Virus record (IMG/VR): IMGVR_UViG_3300042876_000151
Location: 1 to 21,919 of that record
Strand: one strand, 5' to 3'
DNA length: 21,919 bases
From: a virus
Positions 3,346 to 21,919 of this stretch are shown one piece after another. Position numbers and translations under genes: made by a program. Within the stretch, counting starts at the first letter, position 1; every line of letters starts with the position of its first letter. The notes below the pieces were generated by a model. The model was given only the letters and a program-made list of their open reading frames with translations, was not told the origin of the DNA and did no database searches.

Positions 3346-3893
3346 TTGGTCAACCTTTCTGTAAGTTGTTTCATTTGGTCAACAGGCGCAAGCATCCGCC
3401 CGCCGTTTGTCTCGATATATCCGCGCACTTCCGGCAAAAGAAGGTTTTCGGTTTTCGCCCTGTCTTGTAGTTGCTCGTAACATTGTATAAACCGCGCCCT
3501 GTCCGCCGTCTGGTCCTCGCTCATTCGCAGATTTCTCCAACCAATAGCCTTTACTGTCTTTTCGACTAATGGGTGAGACCATACCGGAGTACCATAATCA
3601 CCGCCGTTTTCGTTGATCTGCTTTCCGACTTCCTGCCAAGCTTCATAGGATGACGGTATATTCGTAGCCATGCCGCGAAGTTTTCCAACCGCACCGCGAA
3701 TCTCCCCGGTAGATGGTGCGAATGCCCGCCCTGGTTCGGTTCGGCACATTTTGACGGCGGCTTCGAGGGTTTCCGGGTCAATGTCGGATAAATCTTCCAA
3801 ATAGACCTGAACGGTGTAAGCTGTGACTTTCCAGTTAGGGAATGCCGCTGACAGTTTCGCAATAATGATCTCGATGTCGTGTTTAGTTGCCAT
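3342..3893 (-). CDS. Phage replicative helicase loader (G39P-like)
   Basis: A 183-aa protein. The N-terminal third (AAFPNWKVTAYTVQVYLEDL, then DPETLEAAV, then FAPSTGEIRGAV) matches the all-helical G39P/DnaI-helper fold of SPP1-type helicase loaders. The rest is polar and less conserved, as expected for the tail that contacts the helicase. The role would be to deliver the host replicative helicase to the initiator at the phage origin. It follows the DnaD-type initiator directly, overlapping it by 11 bases, the usual order in such modules. I chose the ATG at 3893 (GAGG upstream) over a TTG at 3908. Confidence 0.75.
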   Translation of the reverse strand: MATKHDIEIIIAKLSAAFPNWKVTAYTVQVYLEDLSDIDPETLEAAVKMCRTEPGRAFAPSTGEIRGAVGKLRGMATNIPSSYEAWQEVGKQINENGGDYGTPVWSHPLVEKTVKAIGWRNLRMSEDQTADRARFIQCYEQLQDRAKTENLLLPEVRGYIETNGGRMLAPVDQMKQLTERLTK

Positions 3894-4713: not shown

Positions 4714-4752
4714 AGTACCAAATGTCATAAAAAAGATGTGACATTTGGTACT
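4714..4752 (-). terminator. Hairpin between late and replication blocks
   Basis: Perfect 14-bp arms (AGTACCAAATGTCA and its complement) with an 11-base loop lie between the end of the late block (4782) and the initiator gene (4584). On the minus strand the stem is followed by TTTATTTC, a weak U-rich tail, so it can act as a terminator. The arms could also bind a repressor: an ATGACA -35-like box in the distal arm and TAAAAG 18 bases on would place the early promoter here. Confidence 0.6.
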
Positions 4753-4781
4753 TGACAATCGCTATTTTGCGTGATTCTATT

Positions 4782-5063
4782 TTATGGGCTGCGCGTCCCG
4801 AATATCATCCCAAGGATTGCCGCAAGGACAACCCCAAAAGAATTCAAAACAGACCATCCATTCACGCGATTCGATAAAGAATTGAAGTCGTCCCCCAGAT
4901 TGCTGATTTGCGTATCATGGCGCGATTGAAGGACCCGGTAATCTGCTATCCCATTTGTGAGGACGCGCATTTCTGAGCGCATGGCGGTCATTTCCTGAGT
5001 CATCGTCAAGATTTGCTGAGATAGGACAGCAAGCGTTACTTTGTTGTTTTCTTCATCTGCCAT
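4782..5063 (-). CDS. XhlA-like coiled-coil protein with C-terminal TM (holin-associated)
   Basis: A 93-aa protein. Residues ~8-65 are a continuous heptad-like helix (QQILTMTQEMTAMRSEM...). A C-terminal membrane segment at ~70-88 (VLNSFGVVLAAILGMIFG) and a short basic tail follow. This order, a soluble coiled coil then a terminal TM, is that of XhlA-type haemolysin/holin accessory proteins. It is the last gene of the late block, where lysis genes often lie. I chose the ATG at 5063 (AGGTG 8 bases upstream) over the GTG at 5072, which overlaps the preceding stop. Confidence 0.6.
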   Translation of the reverse strand: MADEENNKVTLAVLSQQILTMTQEMTAMRSEMRVLTNGIADYRVLQSRHDTQISNLGDDFNSLSNRVNGWSVLNSFGVVLAAILGMIFGTRSP

Positions 5064-6016: not shown

Positions 6017-7537
6017 CTACCCGACCTGTATGGCGGTTTTGCCGTTTACGTTGCGTAGAATCGTTCCTGGGGGCGTTCTTGGGGTCTGTGGCGCGGTTTG
6101 CAGGGGCTGTAAACCCTGCGGAAATGCCTCTTTTACCAGCTCATCCGAAAAACCAGCCATTTTCATGGCTACCGGAGCCGGCACACCTGCGCCTGTCAGG
6201 GTCGCCATTGTCGTGCCTTTTTCCTCAGTCGATTCGCCCCAGCTATCATCAACGATAAGCTGATGGTCAAAATCGCCATTATCAAATGTTCCAAGAGACT
6301 GATCAAAGATTCCGTTGAATTGACCAATGGTAAGCGCCATTTCCATCATGCGCGAAAGTGACGACAAGAAGTTGTTACGCGCTTCATTTGCCCGGTCGAT
6401 TGCCGCGCCCAGTAATGTCCGCATGGCAGTTCCTGATAACTGCGCGTCGGGGGTGAGGGAATACCAGCGCAATTCGGGAAGGTCTTTTTCGATTTCTTCC
6501 ATCTGCGCGTTGAGGATCGCTAAAGCATCCTGATAGTCAATATCAGGAATAAGGGAATTGAGGGTAGCCATACCCGGAAGGGAAACCAGTCGCCCAAACA
6601 AAACCTTGACAGATTCGACTACGCCGCCCAAAACGCCGGTTGTGGTTGATTCGGTCTTAATTGCCGGCGGAGGAAGCGGACGCCCCGCCGCGTCCTTGTC
6701 ATTTGCGGATGCCACAAAGATAGGCTCACCAAAGGCGAAGAGTAAATCATGCAGGCGCGTGGCGATTCGGTTTGCCTCGTAAATCTTGTCGAGCGCGTGA
6801 TAGACGCATGACAAGCCGCGCGCATCCCCGATATCGCGGAACTTCGTGTGTACGATGGGAATAAAATCAATGCCCAATTCCGAGAATTTGATCTCTTCCT
6901 TTGGTGTTCCAAGTTGCTTGATGGACGTTGTTGCCGTGCGAAGTGTCACCCATGAGCGATAAACCTTTTCGTCATTGTCCCAGTATTCGGTGTAAAGCGC
7001 GGGCGTTCCCTGCTGCGCTTCCACGTCCGAATTATCAATGATGGGAATGTCAATGCGGATGTAGGTCAGAAATCCGCGCGAATCCTCACCAAAGTCAGTT
7101 ACAAAGAACGGGGACACATCTTCAAGATAACTCTTTTGGTCATCTCCGCGCACGCGCACGAAGGAATCGCCATAAAGCGAAAAACCTCGTAGCATTGCCG
7201 GCTTGTTGTTTCCGAGGTTGCTGTCCTTGATGATTTGCTCAATGGCTTCTTTGAGTGGCTTATTTTCTGTTTCTGCGTCGCCTTCGCCTTTGGTCGCCAT
7301 GACCTCGATTTTGCGACCGGGCAACATCTTTGCCGCGAAAAACTCAACTGAGCGATTGACCACCGTTCGCAATCGGCGGGTTGTGTCATCCGCTACTACC
7401 TCAGAGTCGTTGTTGTAAAGGTCGTAAAGCGCATCATAAAGTTGTGTATAACTGTATGGAATGACAGACGGAGTCGCGTCCGGCCCTTCCTTGTTCGTGC
7501 CAGTGATGAAATCCCAAAATTGATTGAGTACGCTCAT
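6017..7537 (-). CDS. Portal protein (SPP1 gp6-like)
   Basis: A 506-aa protein that forms the dodecameric ring at one capsid vertex, through which DNA enters and leaves. Length and layout fit the SPP1 gp6 group: an N-terminal wing region (VVNRSVEFFAAKMLP, LRGFSLYGDSFVRVR), a central clip, then the long stem and crown helices (EANRIATRLHDLLFAFGEP, LPELRWYSLTPDAQLSGTAMRTL). A Pro/Thr-rich tail of about 40 residues follows. It overlaps the large terminase by ATGA and has an AGAGG site. Confidence 0.8.
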   Translation of the reverse strand: MSVLNQFWDFITGTNKEGPDATPSVIPYSYTQLYDALYDLYNNDSEVVADDTTRRLRTVVNRSVEFFAAKMLPGRKIEVMATKGEGDAETENKPLKEAIEQIIKDSNLGNNKPAMLRGFSLYGDSFVRVRGDDQKSYLEDVSPFFVTDFGEDSRGFLTYIRIDIPIIDNSDVEAQQGTPALYTEYWDNDEKVYRSWVTLRTATTSIKQLGTPKEEIKFSELGIDFIPIVHTKFRDIGDARGLSCVYHALDKIYEANRIATRLHDLLFAFGEPIFVASANDKDAAGRPLPPPAIKTESTTTGVLGGVVESVKVLFGRLVSLPGMATLNSLIPDIDYQDALAILNAQMEEIEKDLPELRWYSLTPDAQLSGTAMRTLLGAAIDRANEARNNFLSSLSRMMEMALTIGQFNGIFDQSLGTFDNGDFDHQLIVDDSWGESTEEKGTTMATLTGAGVPAPVAMKMAGFSDELVKEAFPQGLQPLQTAPQTPRTPPGTILRNVNGKTAIQVG

Positions 7538-8979
7538 TGTTTACCTCTGCGCTGCTGCGCGGCTAATCCTTCAGCTAAATAAAAACTCAGATAATCACAA
7601 AGTTGCGAAAGTGAATCCACCTGGTCTTTATATTTCGAGTTTGGAAACAGGAATAATTCTTCCTCGAAGTTAAACATCCAATCGTTGTCTGGTCCCACCG
7701 GTGGAAGGATGACCATTCCCTTCTCGCACCATTTAGCAGCTTCGTATGCTCTTGCAATCTTGTCGCCTTTCGGGTTGAAAGGCACGACATTATCAGCCAG
7801 CTTGCTTGTCTGCTTCATGCTTTGGATTGCCTGAATGCCGCTTGATTTGTTCTCTATGATTATATCCCTAAGCATATTACCGCCAAACTTCTTGACCTGC
7901 CCCTCTACCGCGTATTGAAGCTGTGGAAACTCGATCTTGTCTCGCCAAATGTTGCGGATGAATAGTTTGTAGTCAGGCGTCAACTCACCGCAAATACCAC
8001 ATGTGAAGGCGGCGGTGTCCTCAATGCTCGCGGCTGTGTCCCATGAAAAGTAACGCGCCACGCAGGGCATAGACTCGCGTCGGTTTGTGAACCATTCCTT
8101 TTTGAAGATGGCGCCAAGTAGGGGAGTAGGTCGCTGTTGGAATTGACCAGCCACACCAATAGACGAAAGCGGTATTTTCAGCTTTTCCAATTCTTCCCGC
8201 CCGATCCGCTCTGGCCATAACAACTCGCCCGGCTCTGTGCGCGGATCAACAAATCCGATGGATGAATGAAAGCGGTCAACGCCTTCAAACTCCGCAGGCA
8301 ATACCAATTGCTCCCACACCTCTCCGTTTGCGATGACATGCCCACAAGGGTCATCGCCATGGAGGCGTTGCATAATCATTATCTTGTGGACCGTTTTGGG
8401 GTCATTGCCGCGCATGGAAATTGAATTGTCCATCGTGAAATTAATCCGTTTACGCTCTGCCTCGCTGTTGGCTTTGCTGATTTCGAGTGGATCGTCTATC
8501 AGCAAATCGTCACCGCCTTGACCTGCAATACTTCCGCCGGTCCCGAAACAGTAACGATAACCTCCCTGCAAATTCTCAAATTGCTCCGCTCCGTCATTGC
8601 GCGGGCTTATGTCTACGTGAAAGCGTTCCTGATACCAGCGCGAACCGATCACGTCCCTGCATTTTCGGCTGTCTCTGGTTGTCAGACTTGAAGAGTAAGA
8701 GAAGCACAGAAATTTCCTGCTTGGATTTCGCGTCCATACCCAGGCGGGATAAAAGACGTTGACCAAAAGGCTCTTCATGTGGCGCGGGGGAATATTAATT
8801 ATGAGATTATTCGACGGTATCCTGCCTTCATCCATCGCCTGCAAGTACTGGCAAATGGCGTGAATGTGCCAGCCATCCACAAAGATCGTCCCTTTTTCGG
8901 CATGAGGCCACGCGTCTACAACGAAATCGTAAAAACTTCGTCGTAATCGCTCCGCGTCCAGTTCTGCCAGGGTAATCAT
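7534..8979 (-). CDS. terL: Terminase large subunit (TerL)
   Basis: A 481-aa packaging motor. The N-terminal ATPase has Walker A PPRHMKS at residues 64-70 and Walker B DDLLIDDP at ~157-164. PPRHMKS has Met where Gly is usual in PPRHGKS, but keeps the catalytic Lys-Ser. The C-terminal RNase H-like nuclease has its first Asp in FSWDTA (D314), with further acidic residues around the ENKSSG and KDQVDSLSQL segments. Full length for the family. It overlaps the small terminase and portal genes by ATGA. Packaging type (headful or cos) cannot be told from sequence. Confidence 0.92.
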   Translation of the reverse strand: MITLAELDAERLRRSFYDFVVDAWPHAEKGTIFVDGWHIHAICQYLQAMDEGRIPSNNLIINIPPRHMKSLLVNVFYPAWVWTRNPSRKFLCFSYSSSLTTRDSRKCRDVIGSRWYQERFHVDISPRNDGAEQFENLQGGYRYCFGTGGSIAGQGGDDLLIDDPLEISKANSEAERKRINFTMDNSISMRGNDPKTVHKIMIMQRLHGDDPCGHVIANGEVWEQLVLPAEFEGVDRFHSSIGFVDPRTEPGELLWPERIGREELEKLKIPLSSIGVAGQFQQRPTPLLGAIFKKEWFTNRRESMPCVARYFSWDTAASIEDTAAFTCGICGELTPDYKLFIRNIWRDKIEFPQLQYAVEGQVKKFGGNMLRDIIIENKSSGIQAIQSMKQTSKLADNVVPFNPKGDKIARAYEAAKWCEKGMVILPPVGPDNDWMFNFEEELFLFPNSKYKDQVDSLSQLCDYLSFYLAEGLAAQQRRGKQ

Positions 8980-16191: not shown

Positions 16192-17271
16192 TTACCTCAC
16201 CAATCCAGTCGGGTTTGTGTACGTGGTCTGCGCGTCACCTTTCAGGAAGGCGGCGGCATTGCGTCCCCAAGCACCGAACCCGATTTCTGCTTCCCAAGTC
16301 TGCGCGGTCAACGGATGCATCCCGGTTTGTGCAACAAGGCGTAAGCCATTCAAGCCGGTGAATTTGTCAATGCGGTGGACAATCGGCTTTTCGGGTGACT
16401 GAGTTGCCATTGCAACGTAGTAATTATCAGGAACCCATGACCGGGTATAGACTGGATAACCAGCCCAATAACCAACCAGTTTGTTTGCCGGGTCATCTTC
16501 GACTGTAGCAGTTTCAAGCGTGCCTGATGTACGTCCGGGGACTGCCACAACTGCGAGAGTCAGAGCGACAAACTTGGTGCTTGCCAAGTTGGTCAGGGTT
16601 GCAACATCCGCGACATTGATAAACAAACAGACGCCTTTGAGCATATGCTCTGTGACGTTTGCAATCAAGGTGTCGATGTCGGTATACGCCAGAGACGCGC
16701 CACTTGTGCCGCTGTAGTGCTGATGGGTTGTCAGGAACGACGTGCCATCGGGCGCGGAGGGAACAACCGACCCATCCGCATTCAGGAAGGCTTTGACTGA
16801 GAGGGTAGTTCCATCGCCCAACCAATCCACAAACTTATAATTGGACTTGCTGAACATCGAGAAAGCCAATTCCTTGCGGATTTGGTCCAGGTACGCAGTT
16901 TGCACGCCAAGAGCCTTGCCCGCAAGATCGGCGGGAGTGGCGCGTGCGATGAAATCAGCGGTAAAGCCGGTGCTGACACTGAACTTGCGGAGCGGGAAGT
17001 CGATCTCCACGCCGCTAATGTCTTTTTGCGTGCGAGCCACGCCAAGCTCGTCAACTTCCTGCATCTGCATGGTTTCCGATGTACCCCAAACGCGCCGCAC
17101 ATCAGTGGAGGTTTCAGCAACAAGCGCCATTTGATTTGTTACTTGGCTGTTTAGCCAATCCAAATGCGCCTGAATTGCGCGGGCGATTGCGTCCAAGCCG
17201 AATTCAGTGGCGGGAACAAATCGCTGTTTGAGCAAATCTTCGAGGGAGTAAGTGCCTACATATTTAGTCAT
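16192..17271 (-). CDS. Major capsid protein (lambda E-like, HK97 fold)
   Basis: A 359-aa protein of the right size for a capsid E-type major head protein. Features: an N-terminal helix (SLEDLLKQRFVP), an early segment with FPLRKFSVSTGFTADFIARATPADLAGKA, a helical spine (YLDQIRKELAFSMF), then the A-domain part with YAGY/PVYTRSWVPDNYYVAMAT and a strand near the end (AEIGFGAWGRNAAAFLKG). No cleavage site or protease gene was seen, consistent with a separate scaffold protein. It has an AGGTG ribosome site. Confidence 0.8.
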   Translation of the reverse strand: MTKYVGTYSLEDLLKQRFVPATEFGLDAIARAIQAHLDWLNSQVTNQMALVAETSTDVRRVWGTSETMQMQEVDELGVARTQKDISGVEIDFPLRKFSVSTGFTADFIARATPADLAGKALGVQTAYLDQIRKELAFSMFSKSNYKFVDWLGDGTTLSVKAFLNADGSVVPSAPDGTSFLTTHQHYSGTSGASLAYTDIDTLIANVTEHMLKGVCLFINVADVATLTNLASTKFVALTLAVVAVPGRTSGTLETATVEDDPANKLVGYWAGYPVYTRSWVPDNYYVAMATQSPEKPIVHRIDKFTGLNGLRLVAQTGMHPLTAQTWEAEIGFGAWGRNAAAFLKGDAQTTYTNPTGLVR

Positions 17272-17720: not shown

Positions 17721-18134
17721 TTAGACAATCGTGCCAATACTCTGAGTCCTTCCGCGTTCCATATTCGGTTCTGGCAATGGCTTGATCGTCTGTTTTGTGA
17801 TTGTATTTGCTGGGTCGCTCAGCCATTCAAGCTGTTCTGTGAACGTGAGCTTATCCAGCAAAGCGGTGATTCCCTCTGGCAGTCCTTCGCGCAATTTCTC
17901 AACCTTTTCCTTCGCAGCTTCCTCGGCTTTGTTTTGCTTCTCTTCAATCGAGGTCTTGAAGGTTTTATACTCATCTTCAAGCTGCTTGTACTTGGTTTCA
18001 TAGGTCTTGCGCGTCTTTGCTTCGAGGGCGTTGACCTCTGCCTGTGTAAAGGTTCTCTCGGTTTTAGCCTGCTCGGTGGCAGTTTCCTTCTCAGGTTCGG
18101 CTTTTGTTTCTTGTTTTTCAGTTTCTTCGGTCAT
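17721..18134 (-). CDS. Scaffolding protein
   Basis: A 137-aa protein rich in Glu and Lys. The first ~30 residues are low-complexity acidic. A long coiled coil (about 30-90) then leads to a less charged C-terminal part (GLPEGITALLDKLTFTEQLEWLSDPANTI). This matches DUF4355-type scaffold proteins, which guide procapsid assembly and then leave. It is the first gene of the late block, with an AGGGAG site and a predicted promoter just upstream. Confidence 0.75.
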   Translation of the reverse strand: MTEETEKQETKAEPEKETATEQAKTERTFTQAEVNALEAKTRKTYETKYKQLEDEYKTFKTSIEEKQNKAEEAAKEKVEKLREGLPEGITALLDKLTFTEQLEWLSDPANTITKQTIKPLPEPNMERGRTQSIGTIV

Positions 18135-18205: not shown

Positions 18206-18214
18206 ATTGTAGCA
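18206..18214 (-). promoter_or_regulatory. Predicted late promoter (extended -10)
   Basis: The minus strand reads TGCTACAAT, an extended -10 box (TGn plus TACAAT), 72 bases upstream of the scaffold ATG. A weak -35 candidate (TTGCAG, 17 bases away) lies inside the upstream terminator hairpin. As the only intergenic space before the late genes, this is the likely late promoter, isolated from the cassette transcripts by the terminator. Confidence 0.55.
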
Positions 18215-18218
18215 TAAA

Positions 18219-18247
18219 AAAATCCTCTCTGCAATAGGGAGGATTTT
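18219..18247 (-). terminator. Rho-independent terminator after the cassette array
   Basis: A 9-bp stem (AAAATCCTC / GAGGATTTT) with an 11-base loop is followed on the minus strand by seven T, then ATGC. This is a good intrinsic terminator. It closes the recT and cassette block immediately before the late promoter. Confidence 0.85.
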
Positions 18248-18254
18248 GAGCGAT

Positions 18255-18313
18255 GCCCAACGGTTTGCGTTAGTGGCGCGGCTCTATCGCGTCCGCTGCA
18301 CGCGGTGTTAGAC
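18255..18313 (-). other. attC-like site C (59 bp)
   Basis: In cassette orientation (minus strand) the site begins GTCTAAC, a match to R'' (RYYYAAC), and ends GTTGGGC, a match to R' (GTTRRRY). The inner arms GCGTGCAGCGGACGCG and CGCGCCACTAACGC pair with unpaired extra bases, as in attC, around a short loop. It holds the stop codon of the 145-aa gene. Confidence 0.75.
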
Positions 18314-18707
18314 CCCGCCGAAGTTCTTCAATATCATTTTGTATGCCACTGAATGTTTCGCCAACATCATTACACTCAACAGACACCACTTCATAAATTG
18401 CGTTGACAAGATTTTTATATTTATTCAATTCAACCTCTATTTCGGATTCTTCGCGCATAATAACTACGATTTTTGCAAATCCTTCTGTGGCAGTGTGGAC
18501 GCAAAGAAGTTTTTGGAATTGCTCAATAATCCTTTTTGATTCAATTGCGATTTCTTCTGTACGCTTTATACTGCGGCGAAGAATGCTCACCTCATCACGG
18601 ATAAAATCAATTGGATCAACTTCTGTTTCTTCGATTTCATCGCACCAGCCAAATTCACCCAGAACTTCATCGAAGAAAAATTGCAACTGTGATTTTGTTA
18701 GTTTCAT
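18270..18707 (-). CDS. Cassette C gene: 145-aa helical protein
   Basis: A protein of unknown function, mainly helical. It begins KLTKSQLQFFFDEVLGEFGW, followed by long coiled-coil-like helices (DEVSILRRSIKRTEEIAIESKRIIEQF, ESEIEVELNKYKNLVNAIYEV). No known domain was recognised. The last 13 or so residues (LTPRAADAIEPRH) are encoded by the attC site, and the TAA lies in its L' arm, so the natural product may once have been shorter. The start has GAGG, about 10 bases upstream. Cassette proteins of this sort are often stand-alone adaptive or defence-related functions, but none is shown here. Confidence 0.65.
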   Translation of the reverse strand: MKLTKSQLQFFFDEVLGEFGWCDEIEETEVDPIDFIRDEVSILRRSIKRTEEIAIESKRIIEQFQKLLCVHTATEGFAKIVVIMREESEIEVELNKYKNLVNAIYEVVSVECNDVGETFSGIQNDIEELRRGLTPRAADAIEPRH

Positions 18708-18737
18708 TTTAGTTTCCTCTAATTTTGCAAGGTAGGG

Positions 18738-18829
18738 GTCTAACGGCAGGCGTTAGCGGATTGGGGCGGCTAGTACTTGATCTGCGGATACCTATGCCCG
18801 CCCCAATTCCGCTGCACGCGGTGTTAGAC
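18738..18829 (-). other. attC-like site B (92 bp)
   Basis: R'' is GTCTAAC and R' is GTTAGAC, perfectly complementary. The arms inside pair over a long stem: GCGTGCAGCGGAATTGGGGCGG versus its partner, with extra unpaired bases near the L boxes, closing on a 28-base loop. The same ACCGCGTGCAGCGG sequence starts all three sites. The TAA of the upstream ORF lies in R'', the classic cassette arrangement. Confidence 0.8.
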
Positions 18830-19015
18830 CGCTTCTGTGCCGTAAGCGGCTTTGAGTTTGCTCTCGGCGTCTTTGAGCAATGACATTGCTTCATCAACAG
18901 TTTTCGCGCCGGTGACAGTGGCTTCGTAATTGAAGCCGCGAGAGTTGCGCTCAACCTTGACATTTACGCGAGCGCCATCACTATCAGAATGGTGATAAAT
19001 ATGCTGGTCTTCCAT
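18824..19015 (-). CDS. Cassette B second gene: 63-aa protein
   Basis: A small protein of unknown function. Its N-terminus is rich in His (MEDQHIYHHSDSDGA). A beta-hairpin (RVNVKVERNSRGFNYEATVTG) and a C-terminal helix (VDEAMSLLKDAESKLKAAYG) follow, suggesting a compact beta-beta-alpha fold. The ATG at 19015 has TTAGGAGA upstream; the longer reading frame to 19144 overlaps the 51-aa gene and has no such site. It ends exactly in the R'' box of attC B. Confidence 0.65.
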   Translation of the reverse strand: MEDQHIYHHSDSDGARVNVKVERNSRGFNYEATVTGAKTVDEAMSLLKDAESKLKAAYGTEAV

Positions 19016-19022
19016 TTTTCTC

Positions 19023-19178
19023 CTAAGCACCTTTGAACGAAGGTGCGGGCTGGATATTGAACGACAAAAGTGTGCGACAGTCCACGCATTCCCATAAAAT
19101 TCTGCTGACACCCAACTCTGGCATATAGCAACCAAAGCGGGCAAACTTCAAATTTTCGTGTTTACATTTTATTGGCAT
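19023..19178 (-). CDS. Cassette B first gene: 51-aa zinc-ribbon-like protein
   Basis: A small ORF with an ATG 7 bases after an AGGTG that is itself part of the R' box and flank of attC A. It carries C5-K-H7, C17 and C31-x2-C34 (IKCKHENL... GCYMPE... WECVDCRTL), a probable zinc ribbon. It ends 7 bases before the 63-aa gene start and may be co-translated with it. Function is unknown. Support: well-placed start, metal-binding pattern and correct position at the head of the cassette. Confidence 0.6.
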   Translation of the reverse strand: MPIKCKHENLKFARFGCYMPELGVSRILWECVDCRTLLSFNIQPAPSFKGA

Positions 19179-19184
19179 ATTAGC

Positions 19185-19291
19185 ACCTAACGGTTTGCGT
19201 TAGCGGCGGCGAGACCCGCCAGAACGCTTGCCACTTTTAGAACGTTTATTTCGCCGCGCCTTCTCGTCGTCCGCTGCACGCGGTGTTGGGC
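19185..19291 (-). other. attC-like site A (107 bp)
   Basis: In cassette orientation it begins GCCCAAC (R'') and ends GTTAGGT (R'). The inner arms GCGTGCAGCGG and CCGCTAACGC pair with extra unpaired bases, and the ~50-bp variable region between them holds further GC-rich complementary stretches. The L arms are the same as in sites B and C. It holds the C-terminal codons of the 72-aa gene, with TAA in L'. Confidence 0.75.
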
Positions 19292-19418
19292 GGACTTCAA
19301 GAAATGAGAGTTGACCATCAGGTGGGGGACGACGGCAAACAGAACAGAAGCCAGTTTGCATATCGCGCTTATTTTTAGAACTCAACTTTTTCAGGCAATG
19401 ACCACAAAATTGATTCAT
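19200..19418 (-). CDS. Cassette A gene: 72-aa zinc-ribbon protein with basic tail
   Basis: A small protein with C5-x2-C8 (FCGHC) and C25-x2-C28 (FCSVC), a likely treble-clef or zinc-ribbon of about 30 residues. The C-terminal ~28 residues (TPRAADDEKARRNKRSKSGKRSGGSRRR) are strongly basic and are encoded by the attC site. It could bind nucleic acid through this tail. The ATG has AAGGAG, and lies just inside the cassette after the first R' box. Function is unknown. Confidence 0.65.
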   Translation of the reverse strand: MNQFCGHCLKKLSSKNKRDMQTGFCSVCRRPPPDGQLSFLEVRPTPRAADDEKARRNKRSKSGKRSGGSRRR

Positions 19419-19441
19419 GCTACTCCTTCGGCGGGATGTCC

Positions 19442-19448
19442 GCCCAAC
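19442..19448 (-). other. R'-type junction GTTGGGC at the array start
   Basis: The minus strand reads CATAGTTGGGCGG here. GTTGGGC matches GTTRRRY and is the complement of the R'' box of attC A. There is no full attC upstream, so this looks like the entry boundary of the first cassette. The base sequence TTGGGC also follows the last attC, giving a predicted empty site, CATAG joined to TTGGGCATCGCTC. Confidence 0.55.
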
Positions 19449-19470: not shown

Positions 19471-19677
19471 TCAAAAATTTAATGTTTCGTATTGTTTCCG
19501 CTTGGGTTTTATTACAACATCAGGCAGTAAATTTTTGACCGCCTTCTCAATTGCAATTTTCACGGCATCGGTTTTTGACATTTTGAAAAGCGAGTTTTCG
19601 TTCAGTTTGTCAACCAGAGAATCAATATATATTTCATAATCTGACAAGTCAGGTCGAAACTTCTTATCCAAGCTCAT
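19471..19677 (-). CDS. 68-aa protein downstream of the GT42/DUF115-zinc-ribbon gene
   Basis: Unknown function. A charged N-terminus (LDKKFRPDLSDYE) leads into helices (IYIDSLVDKLNENSLF, KTDAVKIAIEKAVKNLL) and a basic end (KPKRKQYETLNF). The size and KTDAVKIAIEKAV helix recall ribbon-helix-helix-like regulators, but this is weak. It overlaps the previous gene by 14 bases and stops 23 bases before the cassette junction, so it is part of the phage backbone and not of a cassette. Confidence 0.6.
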   Translation of the reverse strand: MSLDKKFRPDLSDYEIYIDSLVDKLNENSLFKMSKTDAVKIAIEKAVKNLLPDVVIKPKRKQYETLNF

Positions 19678-20689
19678 AGGTCAATCCCAAAAATTGAATC
19701 GCATCTGATGGTTTCTCGCTTCCGTCGGCGTGCAATGCCTGATGTATTTTGGAGGCATTCTCCAATTCTCGGATTGTTCCGCGTAAAAAGCTGACAAATC
19801 CCTTGCGTCTGAAATGCTCATCAAAGTATAAATCAAAAGCGGGAGTCACTTCCGGTATTCCCTTGAAAGGGGTAATCGCATTCAACGCGCCCTCGCTTTT
19901 GATCGCTTCCGCCTCTGCCTTTTGCAACTGGTCCTTGAGGTGGTTTATTCTCAATTCCAAGCGCGTCTGATAAGCCTGTTCGTTTGTCTCATAAGCGTAA
20001 TGCGTACCAGTCAGGATTTTTGACCCAGGCGCTTCGATCTTTACACCCAGCGCCCTACCGTAGCCTATCCAATATTCTGCGCAAGCCCGCTGATGTGCGT
20101 ATTCGGTTTCGCTTTCCATTTCAAACCCATAAATACTGATGTCAGTGTATCCCATCCAAAACGCACAAATTAGCATGTGGGCAAAGGTTGAGGTGAAATA
20201 AGGCTTTCCGTCCATACAGTACTTCTCTGTCATTTGATTGACGGCGAGAGATAAACACCCTGGAACGTCCTTATTATCATCTTGCATGACAATTGTCTTT
20301 GCAGCGCGTCTTAGGGTAATAATCGCGCCTGTGTCATCTGTTTCTATATGCTCTTCGACATCTTCCGAGTAACGGTGTTCTGGTACTTCGTAATGCCCTT
20401 TGTCGCAATGTGGGCAATCCACCTCAGCGCCTTCCTTCATCGCCTTTCCGGTCCCAGAACAAAACAGGCAATCGCCTGACTGCGCTTTGATGTAGCGCGG
20501 GTGGTTTGGGTCCGCCATATTGTTGTTGCGTTCCCAATCCCAACGTGGATGAAGCTGGAAAAGAACATCATAACGTTTCATCCACTTATTGATATATGCC
20601 TCGTTGAGTGTCCAGATTTCTGCGTCACTATCCCACGAGATAAGATGACGTGTGCGGGGATTCATTCCGACTAAAATCAAAGGTTTCAT
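19664..20689 (-). CDS. GT42/DUF115-like protein with inserted zinc ribbon
   Basis: A 341-aa protein. MKPLILVGMNPRTRHL at the start and the YFTSTFAHMLICAFWMGY plus DISIYGFEME region (about 164-192) match the two hallmark regions of the protein at 2031-2594, so they share a nucleotide-binding fold. Between them, at 74-95, is a DnaJ-like zinc ribbon (CLFCSGTG... CPHC). The C-terminal third has a coiled coil (about 235-270) and a helical end. I chose the ATG at 20689 (TTAGGAGA upstream) over 20734, which lies inside a hairpin. The reaction and substrate are unknown; a glycosyltransferase-like activity is inferred from fold. Confidence 0.7.
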   Translation of the reverse strand: MKPLILVGMNPRTRHLISWDSDAEIWTLNEAYINKWMKRYDVLFQLHPRWDWERNNNMADPNHPRYIKAQSGDCLFCSGTGKAMKEGAEVDCPHCDKGHYEVPEHRYSEDVEEHIETDDTGAIITLRRAAKTIVMQDDNKDVPGCLSLAVNQMTEKYCMDGKPYFTSTFAHMLICAFWMGYTDISIYGFEMESETEYAHQRACAEYWIGYGRALGVKIEAPGSKILTGTHYAYETNEQAYQTRLELRINHLKDQLQKAEAEAIKSEGALNAITPFKGIPEVTPAFDLYFDEHFRRKGFVSFLRGTIRELENASKIHQALHADGSEKPSDAIQFLGLTYELG

Positions 20690-20703
20690 AATTCTCCTAA
20701 GTC

Positions 20704-20795
20704 GCTCCGGGGTGAGGAGTTCACCCCGGAGCATTCGGCTAAAGGTGGACTAGTGGCGCATGCCTTTGCGCTCCCGAATACTCTTCCATTAGCCG
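20704..20795 (-). promoter_or_regulatory. Structured leader upstream of the GT42/DUF115-zinc-ribbon gene
   Basis: The gap after recT holds a strong hairpin with perfect 12-bp arms (20704-20715 and 20721-20732; loop ACTCC on the minus strand), ending 14 bases before the start codon. Upstream, CGGCTAA (20795-20789) pairs with TTAGCCG (20742-20736), enclosing a GCGCA/TGCGC hairpin. ATTCGG (20779-20774) can instead pair with CCGAAT (20738-20733), using the same bases, so two structures exclude each other. This is riboswitch- or attenuator-like. I could not match it to a known RNA family. Short ORFs of 12 and 16 codons, linked by TAATG, also lie here. Confidence 0.55.
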
Positions 20796-20854
20796 ATTTG
20801 GGCTAAGGCGTATTTTAGGACTTTCATACCACCGGCTTCGCGCACCGCCTGTTT

Positions 20855-21895
20855 TTATTGTGCTTCCGTTCCTGCTTGCGCCTGATATTCTGCGGCGCGG
20901 ACATATTCTAAATATTCGCCAAACGCCATCGCTAAATCATCATCCGTTGTGTTTTGCTTGTTGATTTCAGGATGTGCGATACCGAGTTTGTCCATTTTCT
21001 CACATAAGGCAGTCCATTCGTTCCAATGCTCATCTTTGATTGGGTCTGGATTGCTTATCTCATACCCAAGTTGCGCCATGAGTTCAGAGCGTGACTTTTT
21101 CGGCGCTGGTTCTTCGGTTCCTTTGATGTTGATTCCGTCAAAAGCGTCGTTTCGCTCTTCCTGTTGCTCTTCCCCGAATTGCATAAGCAGGCGATTTACA
21201 ACAGGGTTCATCGGCGCAGTCTTGCGTAACAGTCGCTTGAGGACTGTCTTTTTGAACATTTCGGCGCGGGAAAGTTTGTTCTTATTCCACGGGCTATCCT
21301 TGAATTTGTACGCCGGCGCATAGGTCTGTGCATATTCCTCGATCTCCGCAATGGTCATATACAGGAAATGCTTCTCGCCGCTGTTGGGATTCTTGACATC
21401 CCACCACGTTGCGAGATAGCCAGTGATTTGATGTCCGTTTGATCCCGAACTTTGTTCAGATGAGCGCCAGAAACCATGTCCTCCATTGATTCTGACTTCG
21501 CCAGTCATGAGGTTTGTTTCAATCTTTTCGTTATCGTAAATTTCAGTGACGTGGCAGCCTATACCGTTTTCGGAAGCCTTGTCGCGGAAACCTTTATAAC
21601 CAGGCATGAACGTACATACATTGCCATAGGCTACCAAGTAAGCCTGACCATAAGCTGGGTCAACGCTCAAACCGAGGGTTGCGGAGCGAACTGCTGAAAG
21701 GTAAATGCTTTGTGGAGTGCAAGCCTGCAGTTTCGGGTCAGCCATGACAGCCGTCAGAACGCTTGCCACAAATCTTTTTGCTGGCCGCTCTCCAAGCATG
21801 TCTGAAAACTTCTTGATGATTTCCTCTTTGTACATATAGGAGGAAATTTTCTCGATGGGTTGCTGCTGAGTGGTGGTTGTGATCTCGTTGCTCAT
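20855..21895 (-). CDS. recT: RecT single-strand annealing protein
   Basis: A 346-aa protein of the RecT/Bet-type recombinases. The core (KRFVASVLTAV, CTPQSIYLSAVRSATLGLSVDPAYGQAYLVAYG, FMPGYKGFRDKA, RAEMFKKTVLKRLLR, PMNPVVNRL) is classic RecT. The C-terminal ~100 residues are acidic and less conserved. It anneals complementary ssDNA, giving phage recombination and repair. No RecE-type exonuclease gene lies beside it; the small nuclease at 2596 may serve with it. The start has GGGAGGG, 3 bases after the 82-aa gene. Confidence 0.95.
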   Translation of the reverse strand: MSNEITTTTQQQPIEKISSYMYKEEIIKKFSDMLGERPAKRFVASVLTAVMADPKLQACTPQSIYLSAVRSATLGLSVDPAYGQAYLVAYGNVCTFMPGYKGFRDKASENGIGCHVTEIYDNEKIETNLMTGEVRINGGHGFWRSSEQSSGSNGHQITGYLATWWDVKNPNSGEKHFLYMTIAEIEEYAQTYAPAYKFKDSPWNKNKLSRAEMFKKTVLKRLLRKTAPMNPVVNRLLMQFGEEQQEERNDAFDGINIKGTEEPAPKKSRSELMAQLGYEISNPDPIKDEHWNEWTALCEKMDKLGIAHPEINKQNTTDDDLAMAFGEYLEYVRAAEYQAQAGTEAQ

Positions 21896-21919
21896 GGCTT
21901 ACCCTCCCAATCCCATCGT
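21836..21919. repeat. Right copy of 84-bp terminal direct repeat
   Basis: Identical to 1-84, with no mismatch. It includes the recT start codon, its ribosome-binding site and the stop codon of the 82-aa gene. This allows the two ends of the window to be joined into a circle of about 21,835 bp. Confidence 0.9.

Follow-up and report, generated by a model that had tools for sequence, protein, structure and literature searches.

Three integron-type gene cassettes lie head to tail on the minus strand of a small tailed-phage genome, preceded by a conserved 68-aa gene (g68; 19471-19677, minus strand) that ends right at an attI-like site (19472-19446, minus strand). The window, i.e. the whole 21,919-bp stretch of DNA analysed here (IMG/VR record IMGVR_UViG_3300042876_000151), begins and ends with an identical 84-bp sequence (1-84 and 21836-21919), and thus represents a complete circularly permuted genome of 21,835 bp. 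Nearly all phage genes, as well as the cassette ORFs, are read on the minus strand. Genes were identified for the large terminase subunit (7534-8979; phrog_38, E 1.1e-79), portal, tape measure, major head protein (16192-17271; phrog_3990, E 7.9e-32) and a RecT-like annealase (20855-21895; phrog_148, E 3e-42), while no tyrosine recombinase (PF00589), and hence no intI, was found in the genome. The cassettes are followed by a rho-independent-type terminator (18213-18247, minus strand; hairpin -10.5 kcal/mol, z -2.6, then a run of U) and by a gene encoding a 137-aa protein (17721-18134, minus strand) upstream of the head genes; the array sits directly before this gene in three relatives.

Measured from G/TT to G/TT (the slash marking the cut), the cassettes are 257 bp (cassette 1, 19191-19447), 447 bp (cassette 2, 18744-19190) and 483 bp (cassette 3, 18261-18743). 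Cassette 1, which starts with GTTGGGC (19448-19442), encodes a 72-aa protein with zinc-ribbon-like CxxC pairs (19200-19418; DZR E 0.049, below the cut-off) whose ORF runs into attC1. Cassette 2 encodes a zinc-ribbon-like protein of 51 aa (19023-19178; no Pfam family) and an unknown protein of 63 aa (18824-19015), and cassette 3 encodes an unknown 145-aa protein (18270-18707) whose ORF runs into attC3.

The attC sites and relatives of the phage

A sequence-only reading of the window had proposed three attC sites downstream of their ORFs, in the same orientation and at these three spacings, and our analysis confirmed the sites and the spacings exactly. On the minus strand, attC1 occupies 19291-19185 (R'' GCCCAAC, R' GTTAGGT), attC2 18829-18738 (GTCTAAC / GTTAGAC) and attC3 18313-18255 (GTCTAAC / GTTGGGC). 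The orientation is resolved by the extra unpaired base, as L'' GCGTGCAGCGG against the L' complement GCGTTAGCGG places the extra C in the minus-strand L'' arm, the same place as in class 1 attC sites. Also as proposed, two of the cassettes have an R'' complementary to their own start, over 11 bp for cassette 1 and 10 bp for cassette 3, while cassette 2 does not.

To test these sites against known attC sites, we built a covariance model from 12 class 1 attC sites taken from annotated plasmid integrons, which found attC2 with exact ends at E 0.0025 in 119 kb, whereas attC3 was only marginal and attC1 was missed; run without filters, the same model lost attC2. We then built a second model from ten attC sites of Chloroflexota and other bacterial genomes, which hit exactly the three sites, on the minus strand only, at 50.4 bits (E 1.1e-11) for attC1, 49.3 bits (E 2.2e-11) for attC2 and 53.4 bits (E 1.5e-12) for attC3. 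Because these host sites were collected by arm similarity, the second test shows kinship rather than independent discovery and its E-values are not independent. Independent weight comes instead from cassette exchange (see below) and from attC sites of this type on intI-bearing contigs in two genomes not used for the model (G012 and G420). Single-strand folding was far below chance only for attC2 (z -5), and Rfam gave no hit at gathering thresholds, although it may not hold an attC family.

Three relatives also carry arrays, with other cassettes, two of them at the same locus. The sister genome G002 (MCP 86% identical; complete, 127-bp end overlap) has its array at the same place, between the gene matching window 19664-20734 and the gene at 17721-18134, with cassettes that include a Dam methyltransferase. 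L002 (MCP 75%) has the tail of an array there too. G021 (RecT 73%; complete, 141-bp overlap) carries the module with two attC sites, but its copy of the 19664 gene lies on the other side of the array, such that the position of the module relative to that gene differs. A wider MCP profile search added no further relatives.

An attI-like site and its leader gene

The sequence-only reading treated the array as attC-bearing cassettes alone, and missed its main feature, the attI-like site GATGTACATTCCGCATAAAACATAG/TT at its head, with the cut between G19448 and T19447. To examine what lies at the left edge of such arrays, we scanned IMG/VR with one attC arm (72 stretches, about 68 contigs, thus chosen by attC arm only) and located each edge as the GTT whose following bases complement the first attC R''. 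Apart from edges that are simply another attC arm, and two less clear cases aside, the edges located end in MTAG/TT or TGAG/TT after an A-rich core. Nine of them, the window included, share TGTACAYTCYGnnnAwnnnMTAG/TT with one or two deviations. This motif alone found 27 IMG/VR stretches, of which about 18 are directly followed by a cassette whose attC R'' complements the GTT of the motif over 7-12 bases; five (L175, L177, L179, L184 and L186) look like chance matches without cassettes, and four (L171, L176, L183 and L189) are unresolved or truncated. In the window the motif has one hit, against 0.05 expected even with three mismatches allowed.

A matrix built from 26 edges of other viral contigs, with the window excluded, ranked the window's site first at 26.2 bits, the next best scoring 11.8. 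This ungapped matrix did not rank the site of G002, which looks like a form with a one-base deletion. A matrix from 20 of these edges, applied to host-class loci that hold a true intI, placed its top hit 50-400 bp upstream of the intI start, correctly oriented, in 20 of 30 loci (about 5% expected per locus). Thus the phage edge is an attI by sequence. Interestingly, however, the phage attI carries a TGTACAYTC element that is absent from most of the host attI sites read here, while one Anaerolineae chromosome (G425; L221 around 1503-1527) has the phage-type motif followed by a cassette-like start, with no intI or attC noticed in the 3 kb examined.

Homologues of g68 (32-74% identical) sit just before an array in about 12 other viral contigs, in most ending within about 20 bp of the attI. 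These contigs are phages with different terminases, i.e. phrog_38 (the window and G021), phrog_9 (contigs G481 and G051) and phrog_5909 (contigs G482 and G077). The attI motif without a detected g68 also leads an array on contig G034, and occurs on contig G480 where no attC was found, both with phrog_2-type terminases, for four terminase types in total. Conversely, L212 has g68 and cassettes but no attI next to the gene. The complete phage genome G077 appears to hold two attI-led cassette loci (near 3400 and 14290), and g68 of G021 (L033 1926-2051) carries an in-frame TAG where others have E, which may reflect a pseudogene or readthrough. No g68 was found in 396 host-class genomes, in a search run without a positive control. 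The predicted fold of g68 has two helices (pLDDT 77) with no PDB match, a PDB sequence search gave only chance matches, and Pfam gave only a weak PSK_trans_fac match in 2 of 9 members (E 0.0098), such that a ribbon-helix-helix DNA-binding protein is no more than a guess.

Cassette exchange and the origin of the array

To explore whether cassettes move as units, we compared the array ORFs of different loci and found 214 matching pairs, some of which are overlapping records, g68 itself or flanking genes. At the DNA level, contigs L028 and L085 share nothing but one 706-bp block at 95% that runs from the end of one attC to the end of the next, and G002 and contig L039 share essentially one 521-bp block at 92.5%, the Dam cassette. 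The L028 cassette also matches a cassette region in the Chloroflexota MAG behind locus L023 at 66% over 630 bp, and cassettes of unknown function are shared at 82-95% DNA identity between further viral contigs (L037/L087 and L049/L063). The three cassettes of the window itself have no such relative in this set. Of ten longer cassette ORFs tested, a sample chosen for being shared or long, seven are DNA methyltransferases.

The attC and attI types point to a host among the Anaerolineae-class Chloroflexota, of which 91 of 396 genomes carry intI (0 of 14 controls at that cut-off). The same attC arms occur in the intI-bearing Chloroflexota genomes G011, G012, G015 and G420, and MCP relatives, albeit weak (33-38% identity), occur in three genomes of the class. 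The host assignment is an inference.

We favour, with reasonable though not full confidence, the explanation that the phage carries an integrase-less integron platform (g68, an attI-like site and a short row of cassettes ending at a terminator) on which the IntI of an Anaerolineae-type host acts in trans during infection, cutting the phage attI at G/TT, inserting cassettes folded from their attC bottom strand, and able to remove them or pass them on. The sequence-only reading, that these are integron cassettes in a lytic-type phage without intI, is supported, although capture in trans by a host IntI remains an inference and lysogeny by a route other than a tyrosine recombinase is not excluded. 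The phage would gain a changing set of small genes, and the methyltransferases among the longer shared cassettes would help against host restriction, although a benefit of the cargo to the phage is likewise inferred. No empty phage attI and no host-phage pair with near-identical cassettes was found. It is possible, but only tentatively suggested, that g68 and attI form a dedicated cassette-capture module in which g68 binds the TGTACA-containing attI and helps recruit or steer the host IntI, phages having evolved to exploit host integrons as a source of anti-defence genes.

The main alternative, which we consider unlikely, is that the array descends from a complete integron that entered a phage ancestor and lost intI, and that cassettes now swap between phages by homologous recombination, with RecT annealing at the conserved attC arms and without host IntI. 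The window does encode RecT beside the array, and six of 70 array-bearing viral contigs (G019, G041, G047, G055, G057 and G065), whether of phage or host origin, still carry a full integron integrase over the curated cut-off, several with a TGAG/TT attI form. Moreover, G002 (20148-20192 and 20771-20815, the second copy inside L014 attC 4715-4823) holds a 45-bp exact copy of the 3' part of the gene matching window 19664-20734 inside an attC, as illegitimate annealing would leave. However, the attI core stays conserved in phages without intI, cassette starts keep 10-12 bp complementarity to their own R'', a cassette related to that of L028 lies in a host MAG, and the phage attI carries the TGTACAYTC element absent from most host sites read here. 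Insertion by host IntI at a chance secondary (attG-type) site, with no special role for the left edge, appears to occur in bacterial genomes (Loot et al., 2024) but is very unlikely here, given that the edge matches a matrix trained on other phages which also finds host attI, and that the same edge and leader gene recur across phages with unrelated terminases. Chimeric assembly or host contamination is also very improbable despite the metagenomic origin of the contigs, as the array is internal to a genome closed by exact end overlap and three more closed genomes (G002, G021 and G077) carry arrays.

Comparison with known integrons and cassette arrays

With two or more attC sites and no intI nearby, the array fits the description of a CALIN, and it lacks the intI of a complete integron although, by sequence only, it has an attI site at its start. 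Cassettes in virulent phages are already published (Qi et al., 2023; PMC9892861), with 17 CALINs and 21 phages with integrons or integron components, including attC arrays without intI, methyltransferase cassettes and attC sites active with IntI1 in their assay. That study discussed inverted or repeated GTTRRRY motifs and illegitimate recombination at array edges and, as far as we could establish, reports no conserved attI and no leader gene for CALINs in virulent phages; its text never mentions Chloroflexi. Here, a conserved attI-led module recurs in unrelated phages, and this integrase-less module appears to be new, as no report of it was found in a literature search that did not cover preprints and many subscription papers. 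Such a recurrent platform, if loaded by the host's integrase as inferred, would give a concrete route by which cassettes move between bacteria through phages, and would explain how phages could refresh methyltransferases and other small genes.

The sedentary chromosomal integrons of Chloroflexota (Anaerolineae), e.g. G015 and G011, share the attC arms, the attI core and the cassette layout with the phage array, which differs in having no intI, a different element upstream of the attI core (TGTACAYTC), the g68 leader gene and a phage backbone. In contrast to attG secondary insertion sites (Loot et al., 2024), which probably also place cassettes outside an intI locus but at scattered low-consensus sites, the site here is a conserved attI-like one. 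Class 1 integrons share the attC architecture with the extra base in L'', and their attI1 core is weakly similar (rank 4-6 of the phage matrix in 13-kb loci), while intI1 and resistance cargo are absent from the phage array.
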